DNA of 32,912 bases, from the NCBI GenBank assembly GCA_020433455.1, contig JAGRCP010000101.1, positions 24,525-57,436 on the forward strand, written 5' to 3'. The notes below the pieces were generated by a model. The model had not been told where the DNA came from and ran no database searches. It saw only the letters and a list, made by a program, of their open reading frames with translations. The position numbers were made by a program, and so were the translations under genes. Origin of the DNA: Caldilineaceae bacterium. Lineage in GTDB: Bacteria > Chloroflexota > Anaerolineae > Caldilineales > Caldilineaceae. Below, one piece after another: positions 8,074 to 25,245 of this stretch. Position 1 is the stretch's first letter. Each line of letters opens with the position of its first letter.

Positions 8074-9747
8074 TTACGGCCGGGCCGGCGGCGTCACCGT
8101 CGGGGCCGTGCCGTACAGAACCGGGGTAGGACGCGTTGACGTTCCCGCTGGCCGGGGCGCAGCCGTCGTCACAACCGGGGTGGGGGGAACGGGCGTCGGC
8201 TCAACCGTCGGGAGCGCAGTAGGCGACAGCGCGATCGTCGCAACGGGCGGCGAGGCGGCCGGATCGATCAGCGGCTCCTCTGTAGGCGTGGGCGTCGCTG
8301 TGACGCTCGGCTCTTCTATCGGCGTTGTCTGGGGCGTTAGGGTTTCATCCGGTTCAGGCGTCGGCTCCTCCGTAGGCGGAATCGTCGGCGTCCCCTCTCC
8401 TGAAGGCGGGAGCGTCGGAGATGCCGTCGGTGTTGTCGTTTCCGGGGCGGTCGGCGTCCCGTCCGGCGTTGTTTCCGGCGTGGGCGTGGCGTTGGGATCC
8501 ACCGTGGGCGTGACGGAAAGCGTTCCGGTCGGCGTGACTGAGCCGTCCGGCGTATGCGTAACGATTGGCGTCAGGCTGCCGTCGGGCGTCGGCGCCGTGG
8601 TTTCCGTGGGCGCGCTCGTTGCCGTGGGCAGCGGCGTATTCGTGAGCGTAGGCGCGGGCGTCCGGGTGGGACGGCGCGTCGGGTCCGGCTCACGCGTGTT
8701 GGTCGGTCGGGGCGTGAAGGTGGCGGTCGGACGCGGCGTGTCGGTCGGAGTCGCAGTGGCCGTAGGGGTGGGCGTGCGCGTAGGCGTAGCTGTGGCTGTA
8801 GCAGTTGCCGTGGCCGTCGGCGTTAAGGTCGGTTCCTGGGTGGGCGTGGCGGTCAACGTCGCCGTGGCCGTCATGGTCGCCGTCGGCGTAAGGATCGGCA
8901 CAAAGCCGTCACTTTTCTGGGAATCGCCGGAGGCATCGGCATTACCGGTGCGGGTTGCCGAAATAACGGGCAGCGTTGCGTCATTCAGTCCGGCGGCCGT
9001 CTCAACGGTAGCAATGGTGCGCATGAGAATCCGGGCGGCTGCTCCCGAGTCGCCAACCTCATCATACAGGCTCTGCATCTCTCCAATCCAGCTTGCGAAG
9101 AGGGCCTGTCGTTCGCTGCCCGAGAGCGTTGACGCTGCTTCCAGCGCCTCTTCCAATTCTTTTTCAATATCCAGGGCAACCGCGGGTGCGATACCGTCGC
9201 GTACTTCCAGCGCCAGGGCTTCGTGGAGGCGGCGCTTCACCTGCTGTGCGTGCCAGGTGGCATTCTCGCCGGCCGCGGTCATCAGCAGGCCCTGAGCATT
9301 CTCGCCCGCGCGCTTCAAGCCGTAAAGGCGATCGCCGGGCAGGCTGGCGGCCGTGCTGTGGACAAGCGACGCCGTGCTTAGCAGGGCAACCAGCGCCAGC
9401 ATGACGACGGTGACGTTGTAAAAAGCCGAGAGGCTGGGCGGCGCATGCAGGCGGCGACGCATAGTCCGCATCCGGTCGGGGCGTGAGCGATGGGCGCGCG
9501 TTGGGGGCGTAATGCGCCGATGGCCAACGGGCGCAGCTTGCTGCGCCGCCGCCCAAAGGGACGCCCGCGCGCCCTCGAAACCGGCGTCGCTCATGCCTGG
9601 GGGCGGCGCTGCCTGCAGCGCCGCTGCCTGCTTCAACAGCGGCGACAACTCGTCTTTATGTTCAGGATAACGGGCAAGACACTCTTCTACGCTCGCACCG
9701 TTTTCCAGTTCGATCAGGCAAAGGTGTAAAAGTTCGGTCAGGTTCAT
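8074..9747 (-). CDS. probable membrane anti-sigma factor, DUF5667-like, with long Thr/Pro extracellular tail
   Basis: A 557-aa protein, probably the partner that restrains the sigma factor encoded 6 bp upstream. Residues 1-45 contain 'VEECLARYPEHKDELSPLL', a cytosolic motif common in Chloroflexota and Planctomycetes regulators. One membrane span lies at about 109-130. Outside it, 'LPGDRLYGLKRAGEN' (136-150) and the following helical region to about 250 resemble DUF5667. From about 285 to the end the protein is almost wholly Thr/Pro/Ala (TATATPTRTPTPT style), a tail that could span the cell wall and be glycosylated. The start lies close behind the sigma stop, which suggests translational coupling; the Shine-Dalgarno is weak. 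Anti-sigma function is inferred from context and topology. Confidence 0.8.
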   Translation of the reverse strand: MNLTELLHLCLIELENGASVEECLARYPEHKDELSPLLKQAAALQAAPPPGMSDAGFEGARASLWAAAQQAAPVGHRRITPPTRAHRSRPDRMRTMRRRLHAPPSLSAFYNVTVVMLALVALLSTASLVHSTAASLPGDRLYGLKRAGENAQGLLMTAAGENATWHAQQVKRRLHEALALEVRDGIAPAVALDIEKELEEALEAASTLSGSERQALFASWIGEMQSLYDEVGDSGAAARILMRTIATVETAAGLNDATLPVISATRTGNADASGDSQKSDGFVPILTPTATMTATATLTATPTQEPTLTPTATATATATATPTRTPTPTATATPTDTPRPTATFTPRPTNTREPDPTRRPTRTPAPTLTNTPLPTATSAPTETTAPTPDGSLTPIVTHTPDGSVTPTGTLSVTPTVDPNATPTPETTPDGTPTAPETTTPTASPTLPPSGEGTPTIPPTEEPTPEPDETLTPQTTPIEEPSVTATPTPTEEPLIDPAASPPVATIALSPTALPTVEPTPVPPTPVVTTAAPRPAGTSTRPTPVLYGTAPTVTPPARP

Positions 9748-9753
9748 GGCGGG

Positions 9754-10335
9754 TCAGGGCAAGAGCAAATTTCGTAAATTTTCTAACGCCCGATGCTGAA
9801 GCGCCTTGATGGCGCCTTCGCTCTTCTCCATGATCTGCGCGGTTTCGGCGATGTTGTGTCCTTCAATGAAACGCAGCAGGATGACGTTTTTCTGGGAGTC
9901 GTTGAGGGACTGCATACGTTGAAGCACCTCTTCGATCTCCATTTTTTCCAGTACTTCGTCCGCAACGTGATGTTTTCCCGGACTTTGTTCGGCAAACTCG
10001 ATGGGCATTGCGCGGGTACGCTTCTGCTTGCGCTGAATGTCGATCATTTTGTTATAGGCCAGACGATAAAACCAGGCCGAAAAAATCGCCACGTTGTCCT
10101 GGGGCGCAAGTCGATAGCGCCCGATTTTCCGAATCAAATGCAAAAAAACCTGCGACGTCACCTCCTCGCTTAAAACCGGATCCCCGATCCTGGCCAGCAG
10201 ATAGCGATAAATCCGGTCGGCGTAAAGGAGGTAGATGCCGTCAAACGCTCGTGGATCGCCCCACTCCTGCGCACGCTGAATGAGGTCAACCAAGAGGCTC
10301 TCTTCAATTGGGGCGTTACGTTGTATATCTGTCAT
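9754..10335 (-). CDS. ECF-type RNA polymerase sigma factor
   Basis: A 193-aa sigma-70 family protein of ECF size. Region 2 spans about residues 28-105 and includes 'YADRIYRYLLARIGD', 'EEVTSQVFLHLIRKI' and 'FSAWFYRLAYNKMIDIQRK'. Region 4 spans about 135-190, with the helix-turn-helix 'GHNIAETAQIMEKSEGAIK'. There is no region 1.1 or 3. It would direct RNA polymerase to a regulon controlled by the membrane protein encoded just downstream. The start has no obvious Shine-Dalgarno; a 14-bp inverted repeat lies 2 bp upstream of the ATG. The regulon and the signal cannot be read from this window. Confidence 0.93.
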   Translation of the reverse strand: MTDIQRNAPIEESLLVDLIQRAQEWGDPRAFDGIYLLYADRIYRYLLARIGDPVLSEEVTSQVFLHLIRKIGRYRLAPQDNVAIFSAWFYRLAYNKMIDIQRKQKRTRAMPIEFAEQSPGKHHVADEVLEKMEIEEVLQRMQSLNDSQKNVILLRFIEGHNIAETAQIMEKSEGAIKALQHRALENLRNLLLP

Positions 10336-11972: not shown

Positions 11973-12010
11973 GATAAAACAAACGGGACGCATTGATATG
12001 CGTCCCGTTT
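11973..12010 (-). terminator. strong Rho-independent terminator for the SPFH cassette
   Basis: A perfect 13-bp stem (ATGCGTCCCGTTT and AAACGGGACGCAT read on the plus strand at 11998-12010 and 11981-11993) closes a 4-nt loop. On the minus strand the stem runs directly into TTTGTTTTATCC. It lies 124 bp past the stop of the SPFH gene. Confidence 0.85.
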
Positions 12011-12133: not shown

Positions 12134-13186
12134 CTATCCGCCCAAAAATGCGTCGATTGCGCCTTTGCTGATGCGATACTGGCTGCCGATTTTGCGGGCG
12201 GGCAGTTCGCCGCTGTCGATGATGGACTGGATATCCGCCGCGCTTACTTTCAGATAGGCGGCGGCTTCGTCCAGCGTCATCACGTCGGGCACGGACGGCG
12301 CGGCCGCGGCCTGGGCCCCGCTTGCCGACGCCATGCTGCCCTGCATGGCCTGGGAGATCATGCCCGCCATGCCCGCGCCCATGCCGATGCCTGCGCCCAA
12401 TCCCAGACCGTCGCCCGCGCCGCCGCCGGGATTCTGGGCCGCGTCGCCCATGGCCCGCGCGGCCTTGAACTTCATGTACGCGTCCATATTGCCGATGGCC
12501 CCCATGGCGGCCCGCTCGTCGATGGCCTTGGAGGTCTCTTCCGTGGGCGAGAGGGAGATGATCATGAACTGCTTGAGGGCCAAGCCGATTGCGGCAAAAT
12601 CTTCCTGCAGCTTGGCGCGCATGCCCCCGGCGATCTCGTCAAAGAGCGCGGGCAGATCAAAGAGGCTGGTCATATTGCTGCCCAACACGTCGGTCAGGCG
12701 GCTGATGACCATGCCGCGCAGATAATCTTCGATCTGGGAGGTGAGGTAAAGGCCCTGGGTGCCTACGATCTGGTCTACAAATCGCTTGGAGTCGGCCACC
12801 TGCATGGTGTATTGGCCCATTCCGCGCAGGCGGACCATGCCCAACTCGCCGTCACGCAGGCTGATGGGCTGGGGCGTTCCCCATTTGAGGTCCGTATACT
12901 CGCGCTGGTTGACGTAGTAGACCTCGGCCGTAAAGATATCCTGACCGCTGGTCGCCAGCTTGAGCAAGCTGGTGAGAATGGGCACATTGGCCGTGGTAAT
13001 GGTGTGACGGCCCGGCTCGAAGGTGTCCAGCGATCGACCGTCACGATAGAAGACGGCTTCCTGGCTCTCGCGCACGATGACCTGGCTGCCCAGGCGAAAA
13101 TCGCCGGAGCCGCTCTGGGGAACGCGCCGCACAATCTCATCGGCACGCTGATCCGGTACTTCAATAACGTCAATAATTCTGGCCAT
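12134..13186 (-). CDS. SPFH (stomatin/prohibitin) protein with C-terminal excisionase-type HTH
   Basis: A 350-aa protein. Residues about 25-230 follow the bacterial YdjI/COG4260 SPFH pattern: 'FRLGSQVIVRESQEAVFYRDG', 'FEPGRHTITTANVP', 'FTAEVYYVNQREYTDLKWGTP', then a helical stretch ending 'KAIDERAAMGAIG'. A Gly/Ala/Met-rich linker (about 250-300) leads to residues 302-350, a winged-HTH of the excisionase/HTH_17 type (TLDEAAAYLKVS, then SGELPARKIGSQYRISKGAI). Proteins of this SPFH group usually end in a zinc ribbon; here a DNA-binding-type domain takes its place, while the zinc ribbon lies on a neighbouring protein. AAGGAG lies 8 bases before the ATG. A candidate promoter and a strong terminator flank it. 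SPFH proteins form membrane-associated oligomers; the HTH role is unknown. Confidence 0.85.
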   Translation of the reverse strand: MARIIDVIEVPDQRADEIVRRVPQSGSGDFRLGSQVIVRESQEAVFYRDGRSLDTFEPGRHTITTANVPILTSLLKLATSGQDIFTAEVYYVNQREYTDLKWGTPQPISLRDGELGMVRLRGMGQYTMQVADSKRFVDQIVGTQGLYLTSQIEDYLRGMVISRLTDVLGSNMTSLFDLPALFDEIAGGMRAKLQEDFAAIGLALKQFMIISLSPTEETSKAIDERAAMGAIGNMDAYMKFKAARAMGDAAQNPGGGAGDGLGLGAGIGMGAGMAGMISQAMQGSMASASGAQAAAAPSVPDVMTLDEAAAYLKVSAADIQSIIDSGELPARKIGSQYRISKGAIDAFLGG

Positions 13187-13257
13187 TAGTTCTCTCCTTA
13201 AAAGATGGGAGCGGGTAGAACGCAGATGCGTCGGGGGGGGCGGATCGGCACTAATTG

Positions 13258-13286
13258 ATTCAGAAAATTCCTGTTTGCCCGTTCAA
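13258..13286 (-). promoter_or_regulatory. candidate promoter for the SPFH gene
   Basis: On the minus strand TTGAAC (13281-13286) and CTGAAT (13258-13263) are 17 bp apart. The leader would be about 65 nt and would contain a run of eight C residues (G8 at 13233-13240 on the plus strand). This would let the SPFH gene be transcribed apart from the three upstream genes. Confidence 0.35.
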
Positions 13287-13298
13287 TTGTCTGACTGC

Positions 13299-13326
13299 CC
13301 CGACGGCGAAGTCCGCCGGGTTTTTT
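13299..13326 (+). terminator. plus-strand intrinsic terminator with no gene before it
   Basis: CCCG-A-CGG (13299-13306) and CCG-C-CGGG (13313-13320) make a 7-bp stem with one mismatch, followed at once by six T on the plus strand. All nearby genes are on the minus strand and no T-run follows on that strand. It may stop antisense transcription or end an unannotated small RNA. Confidence 0.55.
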
Positions 13327-13353
13327 CGTCCTGATTTTGCCGCGTAACAATCA

Positions 13354-14034
13354 TTACTCGCCGGCGGTTACGTCAGTGGCGTCGTCGGTTGCGGTTGATT
13401 CAGGCAGCGCATCACCGGCAGCCGCTAAACGGTCGGCGGTTTCCAACACGTCTGCTTCCACCTGGGGCGCATAGTTCTTGCCCATGAGCAGATCGGGCGA
13501 AAGCACGGCTTCGCTGCGCTTGTCGTAGAGTGCATCCAATTCATTCACCGTATTCGCTAGCTGGTTGACGGCATCAGCCACCGGGCCGCCGCCGCTGACG
13601 ACCGTGCTCAACGCATCGATCTCTTCGCTGATTTCTTCAATCCGTTCGGCCATGGCCACGTCGAAACGATGGAGCGCGGCCAGTTCATTTTCCTGAACTT
13701 TGGCGGCGTCAAAGAGGCCGGCGTAGCCGTAGCTTGCCGTGCGGATGCGATCGCTCAGGGTCTGCAACCTGGTCACGATCCGGTCCGTCTCGCCTACACT
13801 GGTCAGTCCGCCGCTGTTGAGCAACTGGTTCTGGACGTCCAGCAGCCGGCGCTTTTGCCGGTCCAGCTGGTCGGCCATGAGGGTGCGCAGCTTCTTGTCG
13901 GCCGTGCGCCGCGTCTCTTTGTCAACATAGCCCTTGATGCCGGGCAAGCCTTTTAGCAATTCTTCAAATGCGCCCATTCGGCCTTGTGCCTGCTCGGCAA
14001 ATTGACCGGACGGATCGACGGGCGGGGTAGTCAT
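13354..14034 (-). CDS. coiled-coil protein of unknown function in the SPFH cassette
   Basis: A 226-aa soluble, mostly helical protein with no signal peptide or membrane span. Heptad-like, charged helices run from about residue 40 to 185 (LMADQLDRQKRRLLDVQNQL, DRIVTRLQTLSDRIRT, VAMAERIEEISEEIDALS). A Thr/Ala/Glu-rich acidic tail ends it. The Shine-Dalgarno AAGGAG is 7 bases before the ATG. It lies 69 bp after the zinc-ribbon membrane gene and 167 bp before the SPFH gene. A helical protein encoded beside an SPFH gene recalls PspA-like partners, but I see no PspA signature, so this is only a positional suggestion. Confidence 0.8.
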   Translation of the reverse strand: MTTPPVDPSGQFAEQAQGRMGAFEELLKGLPGIKGYVDKETRRTADKKLRTLMADQLDRQKRRLLDVQNQLLNSGGLTSVGETDRIVTRLQTLSDRIRTASYGYAGLFDAAKVQENELAALHRFDVAMAERIEEISEEIDALSTVVSGGGPVADAVNQLANTVNELDALYDKRSEAVLSPDLLMGKNYAPQVEADVLETADRLAAAGDALPESTATDDATDVTAGE

Positions 14035-14103
14035 GGGAATGCTCCTTGGTTAATACAAAAGTCAGGGTATCGTTGTGGCTGTCTTTTTCCGGCGCGGGCG
14101 CGG

Positions 14104-14655
14104 TCACGCCGCAGCTTCAGCTGCCGTTTCGGCCGCGGCCCGGGGAGTCAGAAACACTTCGCTGCCGCAGTAGGGGCAGACGACAAGGCCCTTGCCGGCA
14201 AACTCCAATTTGCCGCCGCAATTGGGGCAGGTGCGATTTTCGGTCAACTGCTGGCTCTCAACGCTGTACAGAATGCCTTTATCCCAGTTGATGGCCCCGC
14301 TGAAGAGCCGCTTGCCCACCAGGTCCCGAATCATATCTTCGACCGCATCGCGTGAAGTCTGCAACTCCGCCATCAGCTCGGGGATGGTGACCTGGCCCTG
14401 GGTAAGAACCATATTGAGAATCGTCTTCTCCTGCTGCACCGTGGCGAACTGGGCCTGCTCATCAGTCCCGCGGCGGAAGAGATAAAAGCCGATGCCGAAG
14501 ATTGGCGCCATGGCCAATAGCGCGACGAAGATGCCCAAGGCCCGGCCGCCGCCCGTGATATTGCCTTCGGAAAAGGCCCAGATTGCAAAGCCCAGCAGCA
14601 AAAGTGCGCTGCCAATCATGAGTATTGCGCCGACAATGCGGCCGCCGCCAACCAT
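14104..14655 (-). CDS. membrane protein with winged-helix-like region and C-terminal zinc ribbon
   Basis: A 183-aa protein. Two membrane spans (about residues 7-28 and 36-60) are followed by a cytosolic region. Residues about 74-130 (KTILNMVLTQGQVTIPELMAELQTS, then a second helix pair and a short wing) look like a winged helix. Residues 141-163 hold CPNC and CPYC, the four cysteines of a treble-clef/zinc-ribbon fold. The tail is Ala/Glu-rich. AAGGAG lies upstream of the ATG. It lies between the DUF2207 gene and the coiled-coil gene on the same strand. Such a protein could sense or assemble a membrane complex with the SPFH protein. No function is assigned. Confidence 0.82.
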   Translation of the reverse strand: MVGGGRIVGAILMIGSALLLLGFAIWAFSEGNITGGGRALGIFVALLAMAPIFGIGFYLFRRGTDEQAQFATVQQEKTILNMVLTQGQVTIPELMAELQTSRDAVEDMIRDLVGKRLFSGAINWDKGILYSVESQQLTENRTCPNCGGKLEFAGKGLVVCPYCGSEVFLTPRAAAETAAEAAA

Positions 14656-14688
14656 AGGGACTCCTTCGCTGATGAATAACGAGTGCTG

Positions 14689-14712
14689 CGTAATCGTTGC
14701 CCGCGGATTACG
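14689..14712. other. 7-bp inverted repeat upstream of the zinc-ribbon membrane gene
   Basis: CGTAATC (14689-14695) and GATTACG (14706-14712) are perfect inverted repeats with a 10-nt spacer, about 35 bp upstream of the ATG at 14655. It could be an operator or a leader hairpin. Nothing else stands out in the 172-bp gap. Confidence 0.3.
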
Positions 14713-14827
14713 GAAATGCTTCTATTACGGTTCGGCGTGAACGCCACGGCAGAAACTCAACTGGTCTATCACAAGAGGAAACCGTACAAGGATTTCCACC
14801 GGGATTCACTGGGTCTACAGCAGGCGT

Positions 14828-16843
14828 TTATCCAAACCCGCCGCCGCCGCCGCCGCCACCGCCGCCGCCGCCGAAGCTGCCGCCGCCGCTCCAACCGCCG
14901 CCACCGCTCCAGCCGCCTCCGCCTCCGCTCGAGCCGGAGCTGGCCGGGCGACTGGTCATGGTGCTGCTGGCGGAGGAGAGCATGCTGCCCAGGCCCACGC
15001 TCATGGCGCTGAGGCTGGCGCCCATGCCGGCGCTGCCTTGACTCAGACCGCCGCCTAAGCCGCCGCCTTCACCGTTGCCGCCGCTCCAACCGCCGCCGGT
15101 GGGCATGCCGCCGCCCGCGGTAGTTGTGGAAGGTCCGTGCCACGGCGTACCGTAGTAATCGTGGTGGTACGGGCCGTACATGCTGGGTGACGGTACATAC
15201 CAGCCGGGCGCCGGCGCGTCTACCGCGGTGAACTTGCGGATGAATTCCTTGTCGAAGCCGAAGGCGATGGCGTAGGGCAGCCATTGATCCCAAATCTGCT
15301 TTTGGCGTTCGAGATCGGTGTATTTTTCTATGTTCTTCAAATAGGTGCGGAAAGCCTTCCAGCGGGCCGCGACTTCAGACCCCTTGTCCGTTTTACGCGG
15401 CATAGCATGGGCCAGGATAATCATGCCGATGGCGGTAACGCCCATGCCCAGGCCCGGCAGGATCGCCATGGGCGTCAACTCGCCGAAAACGCCGAGCAGC
15501 AGCACGCCCACAAAGATAGCGCCGAAAAGGCCGGAGATGCCCAACCCCACGTACAGGTTGCGAATTGTGGCCGGACTGCGGTTGAAAAAGCCTTCGCTCA
15601 CCACGGCATCGTAGAGATCTTTCTTGAGGCCGGGGATCTTGTTGTAGAACTTATTCTTCAAATCAGAAAGCTTGACCTCTTTTTTGCGGCCGAAGAGCGC
15701 ATCGATAACCTCTTGCTCGTACGGTCGCAACGCCGTGTCGTCCCGCTCCCGGCGATAGATAAAGTCGTAGCCGGTGCGGAAGAAGCCCTCTTCTTTTACT
15801 TCGGTAATGCTGATGGCCTTGCGCCGGGCCAGGTCCACCAGCGTGGCGACAATGTCCTGCATGTCGGCCTGTTCATCCAGCAGCGTCCCCACCAAACCCG
15901 GCGGCAGGTTGTCAGGCGGTTCCGGCAGGTAATCGGCGACCATGGAGACGGGCTTATCCCGGCCCCACATGTACCAGACTGCATAGAGCCCGGCCGGGCC
16001 GCCCAGGGTGAGGAGCAGGCCCAATGCGCCAAACAAGATCGCCGCGATGGGCCCCCAACGTGCGCGGTAAGCCAACTCTTCTTCACGCGCCGCGGCCGCG
16101 GCATCCGCCTGCTCCTGCCATGGCTGCACGGCTCCTTCGACCATGCCGGGGGTGAACTCCACCCGGGTTTCAAATTCCTCGCCCGGACGCAGGGTCTGGG
16201 TTAGGTCAAAGCGAATGGACGCGCCGTCTTCGGCCACGGTTGCTGTAGCCGCATCCCGCGCGTCCAGCTCGTTGATGTAAGCGGCGTATTGCTGCACCTG
16301 TGCGCCCTGGGGCAGCTCAACCGTGACGCTGCCCTCCTGCACGGGGAAGCTGCGATCGCCGTAGATGCCCTTCCACCAGACCTGGTCGCCGTCGCCGTAG
16401 TAGCGGAGGCCGCTGTGTACGGTATAGCTCAAAATGTAGGTGTCGCTTGCGTTTTGCAGGGGCGGAAAATACCAGCGAACGGCGTAGCTGTAGTTGCTCT
16501 CGTCTACCGTGAACGTATAGGGCTCTTCGCCCCACTCGGCTTGCGTATAGAGGTTGCCCTGGCCGTCGCTGAGCGTCCAGTTATCGATGTAGGAAAAGCG
16601 CGAGATGGGGATCTCCCGATAGCCGAAGGTGAATGAGCCCCGGGTGAAGAGGATGGTCTGGGCTTCGCTTACATCAAAGGTTCCGGAGGGATTTACGCGT
16701 AAGGTGACATCAAATCGCTCCCAGACCAGCGACTTGTCCTGGGCATGGGCAGCCGGTGCGGCCAGGAAAAAGCCGCAGAAGATCAAGCCGATGAGAAGGA
16801 AGAGGACCGCTGCCGGTGCATGCAGTCGTCTTTTGGTATGCAT
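14828..16843 (-). CDS. DUF2207-type membrane protein with Gly-rich C-terminus
   Basis: A 671-aa envelope protein. A signal peptide (residues 1-34, cleaved after AHA) precedes an extracellular beta-rich DUF2207-like domain (about 35-240). A membrane span lies at about 265-292. A cytosolic region (about 300-425, with 'LLDEQADMQDIVATLVDLA') follows, then two spans (about 431-454 and 458-480). A second cytosolic part has 'RWKAFRTYLKNIEKYT' and 'YAIAFGFDKEF', typical of the family. From about 570 the sequence is Gly/Ser-rich and the last ~35 residues are nearly all Gly/Ser/Trp (GGGGWSGGGSFGGG). AGGAG lies 7 bases before the ATG. It is the first gene of the SPFH cassette. The family has no proven biochemical role known to me. 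Confidence 0.9.
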   Translation of the reverse strand: MHTKRRLHAPAAVLFLLIGLIFCGFFLAAPAAHAQDKSLVWERFDVTLRVNPSGTFDVSEAQTILFTRGSFTFGYREIPISRFSYIDNWTLSDGQGNLYTQAEWGEEPYTFTVDESNYSYAVRWYFPPLQNASDTYILSYTVHSGLRYYGDGDQVWWKGIYGDRSFPVQEGSVTVELPQGAQVQQYAAYINELDARDAATATVAEDGASIRFDLTQTLRPGEEFETRVEFTPGMVEGAVQPWQEQADAAAAAREEELAYRARWGPIAAILFGALGLLLTLGGPAGLYAVWYMWGRDKPVSMVADYLPEPPDNLPPGLVGTLLDEQADMQDIVATLVDLARRKAISITEVKEEGFFRTGYDFIYRRERDDTALRPYEQEVIDALFGRKKEVKLSDLKNKFYNKIPGLKKDLYDAVVSEGFFNRSPATIRNLYVGLGISGLFGAIFVGVLLLGVFGELTPMAILPGLGMGVTAIGMIILAHAMPRKTDKGSEVAARWKAFRTYLKNIEKYTDLERQKQIWDQWLPYAIAFGFDKEFIRKFTAVDAPAPGWYVPSPSMYGPYHHDYYGTPWHGPSTTTAGGGMPTGGGWSGGNGEGGGLGGGLSQGSAGMGASLSAMSVGLGSMLSSASSTMTSRPASSGSSGGGGGWSGGGGWSGGGSFGGGGGGGGGGGGFG
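14838..14873. repeat. CCG trinucleotide repeat coding poly-Gly
   Basis: An almost pure (CCG)n tract, interrupted by one CCA, encodes the terminal poly-Gly of the DUF2207 protein on the minus strand. Copy number could change by slippage without loss of frame. Confidence 0.75.
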
Positions 16844-16955: not shown

Positions 16956-18185
16956 TCATGGCTGACGTTCAATCGACGTTTCCGTTACTTCCATTTCCGC
17001 CAATTGGGTTGCCGCCCAAAGCATGTCGTCATCCTGTGTTTCCAGCGGCGGCAGTTCCTCTAGGTCCATGAGCCCAAAGTGCTGCATGAACAGGTCGGTG
17101 ACGCCGTAGAGGATGGGCCGCCCCACCGTCTCCAGCCGCCCTACTTCCTCGATCAGTCCCCGCTGGATCAGCGAGCGCAGCACGCCTGCGCAATCTACGC
17201 CGCGTACGGCTTCCACCTGCAGGCGGGTGGCCGGTTGGCGATAGGCGATGACGGCCAATGTCTCCAGCGCCGGGCCGCTCAGCTTGGTAGTCAGGTCCAG
17301 ATTGAGGAAGTCTTCGATGGCGCCTGCTGTTTCGGGCGCAGTGACCAGCAGATAGCGGCCATCGCGATTTTGCAGGCGCAAGCCGCGTCCGTCCTGGCGA
17401 TACAGGCGATCCAGTCGCTGCAGCGTGGCGTGGATGGACTCCAGCGTGACGTTGAGCGCTTTGGCCAATTGCACCGCGTCCGGGGCCTCGTCGCTGACAA
17501 AGAGCAGGCTCTCTACAAGCTGGGTCAATCCCAGGCGGCGGCCATGAGATTCCACCATGATCTCCGCGGGCAGGCCGTTGCTTCCCTCCACAATCTCCAG
17601 TTCGGCCTGAACGAGGGGCCCCTCCGGTTCTTGGGTCGCAGCGTCGATTTCTTCGTCATCGACTTCCCTGCCGGCTGCGTCAGGCGAGACGGTATCCGCT
17701 TCCGCTTCATCGGAGAGGACGCTCGCCGCTTCCGCCGTAAGCACGTCGTCATCTTCTTGAAGCAGCAATACGTCATCCGCGCTGAATGGTTGCGACGAGG
17801 GGATTCCGCTTTCGCCCACGTCGGGCGCAGCTTGTTCCGGCGCGTCGCTGATCGGGGCGGCGCCTTCTTCCCTTTCTTCCTCTTCGTCTTCTTCGGTGCG
17901 CACTGCCGGGCTTTCTTTGGCGCGTTCAAGGGAGGAAGCCTCTGTAAATTCTTCCCGCGCCGCAATATTCAGGTCATCAACAAAAGGGGCTGTTTCTGCT
18001 GTCGGGCTTTCATCTATTTGCTGTATTTCTTCCATTGCGTCCTTTTTTTTCATTCCCTGCTCCCCTTCTTCTCGCCTGTTTTCCATCTCTCCGATGAGCA
18101 CCGGCCCTGATTCGCCTGTAAAGGACGCCCGCCAGAAGACGCGGAAATTATGGGCCGTCACGCGGAGGAAGCGGCGAATAGGCAT
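16956..18185 (-). CDS. scpB: segregation and condensation protein B with long acidic N-terminal extension
   Basis: ScpB works with ScpA and SMC to condense and segregate the chromosome. The conserved core (about residues 219-395 of 409) has two winged helices: 'LVESLLFVSDEAPDAVQLAKAL', 'LSGPALETLAVIAYRQPATR' and 'RGLIEEVGRLETVGRPILYGVT', the last two being family hallmarks. The first ~215 residues are acidic and low-complexity (EEDEEEEREEG) and are not part of the usual ~200-aa protein. Start choice is open. The ATG at 18185 is 6 bp after the AmaP-like stop, with GGAG 10 bases upstream. The ATG at 18053 (MKKKDAM) has GGGGAG 6 bases upstream. scpA is not in the window. Function from the core is secure. 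Confidence 0.92.
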   Translation of the reverse strand: MPIRRFLRVTAHNFRVFWRASFTGESGPVLIGEMENRREEGEQGMKKKDAMEEIQQIDESPTAETAPFVDDLNIAAREEFTEASSLERAKESPAVRTEEDEEEEREEGAAPISDAPEQAAPDVGESGIPSSQPFSADDVLLLQEDDDVLTAEAASVLSDEAEADTVSPDAAGREVDDEEIDAATQEPEGPLVQAELEIVEGSNGLPAEIMVESHGRRLGLTQLVESLLFVSDEAPDAVQLAKALNVTLESIHATLQRLDRLYRQDGRGLRLQNRDGRYLLVTAPETAGAIEDFLNLDLTTKLSGPALETLAVIAYRQPATRLQVEAVRGVDCAGVLRSLIQRGLIEEVGRLETVGRPILYGVTDLFMQHFGLMDLEELPPLETQDDDMLWAATQLAEMEVTETSIERQP

Positions 18186-18191
18186 GGCGAG

Positions 18192-18752
18192 CTAGCTCCA
18201 TTCGGGATCGTAAGGCGCATAGCGCAACTGTACATCCAGCCTGCCCAGCTTGAGCCCCATATCCTGCTCGATGATGTCGCGGGTGACTTCCACTACCTCA
18301 TCGGTCTTCATGGGCACATCGACGTTGGGCGCGGTCTCCACCTCCAGGCGGATGTCTACAGCGCCGCCCCGGGACTTGACGCTGGGGATCACCGTGACGA
18401 TCTCGGCGAGTTGATCCAGATGCCACTCCAGCCGGCGGCCGATGCTGTCCGTGTCCAGTTCCACCGAGCCGCCCTCAACCGTGCGCACGCGTACGCCGCG
18501 CCGGCGTCCTGTCCACAGTTCCGTAATGAGCAACGTCCCGAACAGGGCGACGGCGCCCACCACCACGGCGATTTGACCAATGACAAAATTGGCGCTGTTC
18601 TCCTCTTGCCAGCCGGTCAGTTGGGCCAGCCGGCCGTCCAAAAAAAGTTGGGCCTGGGCCAGCGCACGAAAAGGCATCACCGCGACGTAACAGATGAGGA
18701 GCAACAGGAAAAGCCACAGCAACGCGGCGACAATTCGATTCAACAGATTCAT
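18192..18752 (-). CDS. AmaP-like alkaline-shock membrane anchor protein
   Basis: A 186-aa protein. Two hydrophobic spans (about residues 7-27 and 55-80) flank an external loop. The C-terminal part (about 85-180) has alternating strands and one long helix, like Asp23/AmaP proteins: 'LEWHLDQLAEIVTVIPSVKS', 'DIRLEVETAPNVDVPMKTD', 'EVTRDIIEQDMGLKL'. In Gram-positive bacteria AmaP tethers Asp23 to the membrane; no asp23 gene is seen here. The product ends 6 bp before the long scpB start, so the two are probably co-transcribed. No Shine-Dalgarno is evident. The family call rests on layout and motif feel, not on a search. Confidence 0.7.
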   Translation of the reverse strand: MNLLNRIVAALLWLFLLLLICYVAVMPFRALAQAQLFLDGRLAQLTGWQEENSANFVIGQIAVVVGAVALFGTLLITELWTGRRRGVRVRTVEGGSVELDTDSIGRRLEWHLDQLAEIVTVIPSVKSRGGAVDIRLEVETAPNVDVPMKTDEVVEVTRDIIEQDMGLKLGRLDVQLRYAPYDPEWS

Positions 18753-25210: not shown

Positions 25211-25245
25211 ATGTGCTGCGTGACGGGTCCCGTCACGCAGCACGT
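25211..25245. terminator. hairpin between convergent genes, possibly bidirectional terminator
   Basis: A perfect 15-bp inverted repeat (25213-25227 and 25229-25243), extended by a G-T and an A-T pair, lies in the 115-bp gap between the plus-strand aminotransferase and the minus-strand gene ending at 25262. Only a short TATTT follows on the plus strand. Stem strength and position suggest a terminator for both directions. Confidence 0.6.

Follow-up and report, generated by a model that had tools for sequence, protein, structure and literature searches.

In Bacillus subtilis, the SPFH (band-7) protein of the pspA operon, YdjI, recruits PspA to the membrane and is needed for the formation of PspA foci (PMC8581546), and the foci of YdjI and of PspA both depend on two membrane proteins, YdjG and YdjH (PMC8581546). 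YdjG has zinc ribbons (PMC11237479, PMC9239133) and is described as combining two of them with an NTF2-like domain, while YdjH is described as carrying a TPM domain (PMC11237479). Reported PspA operons include DUF4178 among their components (PMC11237479), pspA frequently has winged-helix genes as neighbours (PMC10936438), and the SHOCT domain is found most commonly with the SPFH family PF13421 (PMC3581485). Here, we analysed a stretch of 32,912 nucleotides (the window) from contig JAGRCP010000101.1 (positions 24,525-57,436) of a 5.25 Mb Caldilineaceae assembly, GCA_020433455.1, in which four minus-strand open reading frames (ORFs; 16843-12134) encode, in this order, (i) a DUF2207 membrane protein, (ii) a protein with two membrane spans, a winged helix and a zinc ribbon, which we name WHZR, (iii) a helical-bundle protein, which we name CC, and (iv) an SPFH protein. 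The four genes form a conserved and modular unit, and their products probably make up an SPFH scaffold of the Psp/COG4260 (YdjI) type that is anchored in the membrane and would serve its maintenance. On our best reading, the cassette is partly uncoupled from PspA, with WHZR and CC as uncharacterised families of putative adaptors.

Conservation of the cassette and its linkage to PspA

Profile searches at an expectation value (E) of 1e-3 detected WHZR in 51/61 genomes, the window's own included; a hand count at E 1e-10 gave 45/61, the remaining six being mostly matches to the ribbon region. WHZR, CC and SPFH follow each other in order on one strand in all 30 same-family loci listed, and DUF2207 is present in 26 of these. 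Among the same-family loci available with wider flanks, all four genes stand in order in 15/15, and DUF2207 occurs twice in two of these loci; the flanks vary (ScpB in 5/15, ArsA in 1/15). Because gene order is kept while the flanks change, we rejected a neighbourhood formed by chance; the synteny in related genomes by which the initial annotation had proposed to check its four-gene set is conserved. Tandem duplicated DUF2207 genes lie upstream of WHZR in L059 (3758-8032), L064 (4198-8475) and other loci.

A genome scan confirmed 268 relatives, of which the best 80 were counted; with many loci stopping at contig ends, these order counts are lower bounds. The complete order DUF2207-WHZR-CC-SPFH was obtained in at least 50/80 loci, CC after WHZR in at least 76/80 and PspA after CC in at least 7/80, and the closest named loci among the 80 belong to Caldilineaceae metagenome-assembled genomes (MAGs) of Chloroflexota. 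In the phylum as a whole, 37/251 sampled genomes have CC and 39/301 have WHZR at E 1e-3, several of the latter matches covering only the ribbon or only the membrane part.

In sister lineages, pspA lies inside the cassette. In the Thermomicrobiales MAG L134, WHZR is followed by a CC that carries an additional domain at its C-terminus, then by a PspA_IM30 protein (E 3.5e-49) and last by an SPFH protein with a double zinc ribbon. The class of genome G301 has CC in 49/149 genomes, and pspA directly follows CC in 24 of the 30 loci listed. Compared with DUF4178 (cut-off 25), the extra domain of CC scored 24.9 bits in L121 and 17.3 bits in L134 and gave no match in L157. Nine loci from further families carry the membrane part of WHZR in one frame of about 375-460 residues; the CC profile was detected in the frame in 4/9, PspA adjoins in 5/9, and DUF4178 exceeded its cut-off in all three frames scanned. 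In these fusions of two spans, CC and DUF4178, the WHZR profile matches the membrane part only, the winged helix and ribbon being absent so far as the profile shows. Because sister lineages have pspA inside the cassette and the fusions often lie beside pspA, we tie the cassette to Psp/SPFH membrane-stress systems.

PspA is not obligatory for the cassette. PspA_IM30 was detected in 37/61 genomes. Genus g9, which includes the single-contig genome G031, has WHZR-CC-SPFH in 8/8 genomes and PspA, at E 1e-3, in 0/8. The window's own genome has one divergent PspA_IM30 match (G000:C127; 50 bits, cut-off 33.9), with no cassette gene beside it.

Comparison with pspA-ydjGHI of B. subtilis shows a common set of an SPFH protein, a membrane zinc-ribbon protein and a further membrane partner. 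PspA is shared by the sister lineages of the window but not by the window's operon, which has DUF2207 in place of the TPM protein YdjH and an additional protein, CC. WHZR combines its two spans with a winged helix, whereas YdjG has its two ribbons and NTF2-like domain, and the SPFH tail is HTH-like (helix-turn-helix) where that of YdjI is a zinc ribbon. TPM was absent from the families listed for the four cassette proteins at E 0.1. Because PspA and TPM are lacking, we set the unit apart as a variant that by analogy would work like pspA-ydjGHI, not as a member of it. The initial annotation had stressed that the zinc ribbon sits on a separate membrane protein; it does sit on WHZR, but the arrangement is not unusual, YdjG being built likewise. 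The PspA operons with DUF4178 and band-7 proteins (PMC11237479) resemble the present loci in grouping DUF4178, band-7/SPFH, SHOCT and zinc-ribbon modules around PspA. They differ in that DUF4178 here forms the domain at the C-terminus of a CC-type protein; the main text of that study makes no mention of DUF2207, and WHZR and CC were not met in the part of it covered here. In the open-licence PubMed Central literature, where absence is weak evidence, DUF4178 and PspA occurred jointly only in PMC11237479 and SHOCT and SPFH only in PMC3581485; SPFH appeared along with winged and zinc-ribbon modules in three papers; no paper had DUF2207 together with SPFH and, among the matches listed, none had it with PspA or YdjI.

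The membrane and proposed adaptor proteins and the exchangeable SPFH tail

The DUF2207 protein matches both Pfam domains of its family, the N-terminal PF09972 (69.2 bits, cut-off 24.4, E 7e-19) and the C-terminal PF20990 (172.9 bits, cut-off 33, E 1e-50). Its hydrophobic segments (11-29, 266-284 and 432-450) indicate a signal-like N-terminal span, an extracytoplasmic domain, further spans and a glycine-rich tail. A DUF2207 mutant of Streptococcus mutans was reported to be sensitive to acid and peroxide (PMC10457818), a phenotype that by analogy fits a possible stress role.

WHZR has spans at residues 7-25 and 42-60, with RR after the second. Its AlphaFold model (mean pLDDT 88) shows a pair of helices at the N-terminus, a winged helix and a ribbon. 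The ribbon falls below the Pfam cut-off (22.8 against 27 bits), and its four cysteines are invariant in alignment A3, from which the WHZR of L034 was left out for an in-frame stop in the stretch first used; the relatives of solved structure are zinc ribbons only. The winged-helix region scored just under the cut-off for the PCI domain PF01399 (21.1 against 22 bits). Structural comparison by VIA-align returned mostly PCI proteins of the COP9 signalosome, the 26S lid and eIF3 as best neighbours, with a top Z of 7.4 for 8h38_B (root-mean-square deviation 2.0 over 73 residues), a Z also reached by models without clear relatives. Foldseek placed the archaeal transcription factor PF0095 of Pyrococcus at rank 1 (E 0.011), with chains of the proteasome and of COP9 in the rows after it, and the transcription factors TM1602 and NiaR aligned as well. 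We take it as a lead from the model that the winged helix may be closest to PCI-type protein-binding winged helices, with scores that are modest and could arise by chance. The likeness to these and to UFL1/DDRGK1 lies in the fold and in the weak PF01399 match only; WHZR is below the Pfam cut-off, bacterial and membrane-anchored.

The CC protein had been annotated as a coiled coil. Its model (mean pLDDT 87) predicts instead a compact helix bundle, as judged from secondary structure and from the bundle proteins aligned to it. The family shares a conserved core of about 175 residues (alignments A1 and A4; A4 comprises 61/72 CC references and the window, A5 60/79 and the window). Among its conserved motifs are LPGxxGYxxKExRR and YGYAGLFDA. 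The model has no clear relative, the best Z of 12.9 for IncA lying inside the chance range for bundles, and matches to solved PhoU (E 0.0016) and HtpG (E 0.007), which extend over brief or incomplete runs of helix, we ascribe to chance. Most of CC is matched by the LIMLP_15305 family model NF047596 (Leptospira by its locus tag, PMC7567364; E 6e-14), at 52.2 bits far under the curated cut-off of 210. We also considered CC as a PspA-like polymer and found no support in profile, model or structural comparisons: CC did not match the PspA_IM30 profile, comparison with CdvB2 gave only E 0.36 and TM 0.14-0.16, and neither PspA nor ESCRT-III was among the best 50 structural rows.

The SPFH protein belongs to Band_7_1 (PF13421; 187.2 bits, cut-off 24, E 4e-55), and its tail matches HTH_17 with 48.7 bits against a cut-off of 27. 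No relative of solved structure was found for the protein at E 0.01, and the structure search with the tail was dominated by designed armadillo repeats, the single HTH row being Gp37 (E 0.2). The protein thus shares its family with the PF13421 proteins that end in SHOCT, the HTH-like module occupying the SHOCT slot. We compared 98 distinct SPFH tails, which are phylogenetically related and not independent, counting identical tails once. All ten from loci with PspA are zinc ribbons; the 88 from loci without it comprise 47 HTH, 33 SHOCT, 6 zinc-ribbon and 2 unclassified tails, where SHOCT denotes a motif seen by eye together with weak Pfam matches, and 15 assignments were made by eye (3 HTH, 10 SHOCT, 2 unclassified). 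As judged from these sequences, the C-terminus is an interchangeable slot for HTH, SHOCT or zinc ribbon. Within an 11-residue recognition segment, K/R occurs in 1/40 HTH tails of SPFH proteins, at the first position only, and Asp fills one position in 39/40. The same segment contains K/R in 24/24 ordinary HTH_17 domains from relatives; these controls derive from 31 loci, three of which gave no row, and 24 of the 28 rows were used after dropping L251 as a false match and L242, L245 and L253 as SPFH tails. A longer helical tail was seen in L129 (6210-7391) and L161, that of L129 without a Pfam family above cut-off. Outside the cassette, the genome of the window contains another Band_7_1 match, a divergent one of 27.2 bits (L002, G000:C137:6622-6945).

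Gene arrangement and surroundings in the window

Coordinates of the cassette and its terminator are collected in Table 1. A GGAG-type ribosome site stands at every one of the four genes, and the intergenic gaps measure 172 bp (DUF2207-WHZR), 69 bp (WHZR-CC) and 167 bp (CC-SPFH). The terminator hairpin lies 123 bp beyond the SPFH stop. Perfect 13-bp stems appeared in none of 60 simulated order-1 Markov windows, compared with two in the real window; the single-strand arrangement and the closing terminator described in the initial annotation are thus borne out. The other perfect 13-bp inverted repeat lies near 25213. On the plus strand, a terminator-like hairpin with a T-run occupies 13304-13318 between CC and SPFH, a gap in which we identified no gene on that strand. 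A sigma-70 promoter scan of the window returned 3 sites against 1.7 expected by chance, from which we draw no conclusion.

Table 1 Features of the four-gene cassette and its terminator in the window
Feature	Position	Strand	Basis
DUF2207 membrane protein, 671 amino acids	14828..16843	-	Pfam PF09972 and PF20990 above cut-off; hydrophobic segments
WHZR, 183 amino acids; two membrane spans, predicted cytosolic winged helix, zinc ribbon	14104..14655	-	spans, model, invariant cysteines
CC, 226 amino acids; predicted helical-bundle protein, uncharacterised family	13354..14034	-	alignments A1 and A4, model, NF047596 below cut-off
SPFH (Band_7_1), 350 amino acids; C-terminal HTH_17-type module at about residues 302-348	12134..13186	-	Pfam; tail comparison
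Intrinsic terminator; perfect 13-bp stem, 4-base loop, T-run	11981-12010	-	hairpin search

The cassette is flanked by ScpB and an AmaP-like protein upstream and by an ArsA/Get3 ATPase downstream. The AmaP-like protein (44.1 bits, cut-off 55), which resembles a membrane anchor of alkaline-shock proteins, lies next to scpB just upstream (18192-18752 and 16956-18185), and this neighbourhood recurs together with the cassette in 4/15 wide loci (L052, L055, L057, L062). An ORF with a long Pro/Thr-rich region (8074-10335) adjoins a sigma-factor-like ORF (9754-10335), a pair that by eye resembles an extracytoplasmic function (ECF) sigma factor and its membrane partner. We also considered a mobile or viral cassette and found no support for one: no CC relative was found in viral contigs (25 pattern matches, 0 confirmed) or plasmids, and no WHZR relative in phages. 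As to a defence system, PADLOC gave weak matches only, of which that to mad1 covers the HTH tail alone.

Proposed function and alternatives

In the mechanism that we propose, DUF2207 and WHZR would sit in the membrane, where the extracytoplasmic domain of DUF2207 would sense or mark a damaged membrane patch. The CC bundle would join the winged helix and ribbon that WHZR would expose to the cytosol in an adaptor that docks the soluble SPFH protein, which in turn would oligomerise into a scaffold at the inner leaflet. Whether HTH-like, SHOCT or zinc ribbon, the tail of the SPFH protein may act as a short peptide- or protein-binding module that chooses clients. For operons of the Thermomicrobiales type, the client would plausibly be PspA, an ESCRT-III-like remodeller; in the family of the window, where PspA is encoded elsewhere in the genome or escapes detection, the scaffold would act with an unlinked PspA or alone. 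Nucleic-acid binding would not be needed in this scheme.

Several observations weigh against such a scaffold. The window's own operon contains no pspA, 15/45 genomes with a strong WHZR match have no detectable PspA (hand count), and PspA is only weakly associated with WHZR (30/45 genomes with it, 7/16 without). The cassette is split in G039, where one contig bears DUF2207-WHZR and another CC-SPFH, and in the single-contig genome G046 CC and WHZR are about 1 Mb apart; an apparent split in G050 falls at contig ends and was excluded. CC stands without adjoining WHZR or SPFH in several Chloroflexota (L147, L149, L154, L155, L165, L166) and, given such genes, may have a wider role. The two longer intergenic gaps are also large enough for internal promoters.

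These gaps (172 and 167 bp), together with the separation of DUF2207-WHZR from CC-SPFH in some genomes, would suit mere neighbours with separate membrane jobs. We regard this as the most improbable of the explanations, as the order is kept in 15/15 wide loci despite changing flanks and the WHZR membrane part is fused in frame with a CC-like region. Nearly as improbable is signalling from the membrane to DNA, the initial annotation's suggestion for what it took to be a membrane-stress complex, in which the HTH tail and the WHZR winged helix and ribbon would bind DNA and pass membrane stress on to transcription. The conserved unit is supported, as is the link to membrane stress, the latter through pspA in the sister cassettes and the recruitment of PspA by YdjI; the signalling to DNA is not supported. 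It can draw on the HTH_17 match above cut-off, on the alignment of the winged helix with archaeal and bacterial transcription factors (PF0095, TM1602 and NiaR) and on basic residues kept in the wing part of the HTH tails. Against this, the tail slot is interchangeable with SHOCT and zinc ribbon, basic recognition residues are lost from nearly all SPFH tails and present in all controls, and the WHZR profile detects neither winged helix nor ribbon in the fusions with DUF4178. The nucleic-acid-binding folds ascribed to both proteins are thus present as folds, one above cut-off and one modelled, but the first lacks a basic recognition helix and the second appears PCI-like, at a Z that chance could reach. 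Because the tail swaps, K/R is lost and the winged helix appears PCI-like, protein binding is more likely than DNA reading for both modules.

A further alternative, to which we assign a low but appreciable probability, is a prohibitin/HflKC-like SPFH platform for the quality control or assembly of membrane protein complexes, not a stress responder, in which WHZR and CC would select membrane-protein clients. PCI-like winged helices are protein-assembly modules, a chaperone-like role has been suggested for band-7 proteins that occur with PspA (PMC11237479), and genus g9 retains the cassette in 8/8 genomes without detectable PspA, all of which would suit such a platform. However, pspA inside the sister-lineage operons points to membrane repair, and the profiles used recognised no protease or chaperone gene in the loci.

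The membrane-maintenance scaffold can be extended to a layout resembling ESCRT-II/ESCRT-III recruitment, a speculative step that we consider unlikely in this specific form. The PCI-like WHZR and the CC adaptor would nucleate SPFH, and PspA where present, on the inner membrane. Genomes of the Caldilineaceae type would have kept the recruiter and an SPFH scaffold with an HTH-derived protein-binding tail, with PspA outside the operon or absent, and so possess a PspA-independent membrane-maintenance machine.

The analysis enlarges the set of components around PspA and SPFH proteins by WHZR, CC and DUF2207, the first two as uncharacterised families of putative adaptors. It provides a case of a membrane-anchored winged helix that is conserved through much of Caldilineaceae and found in Thermomicrobiales-type genomes, and of an HTH-fold module used in the position that SHOCT or zinc ribbons take in relatives. 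It further points to genomes in which the scaffold is retained and no PspA is detectable, so that the role of YdjI-type SPFH scaffolds without PspA, and the way in which they are recruited to membranes, becomes a testable question.

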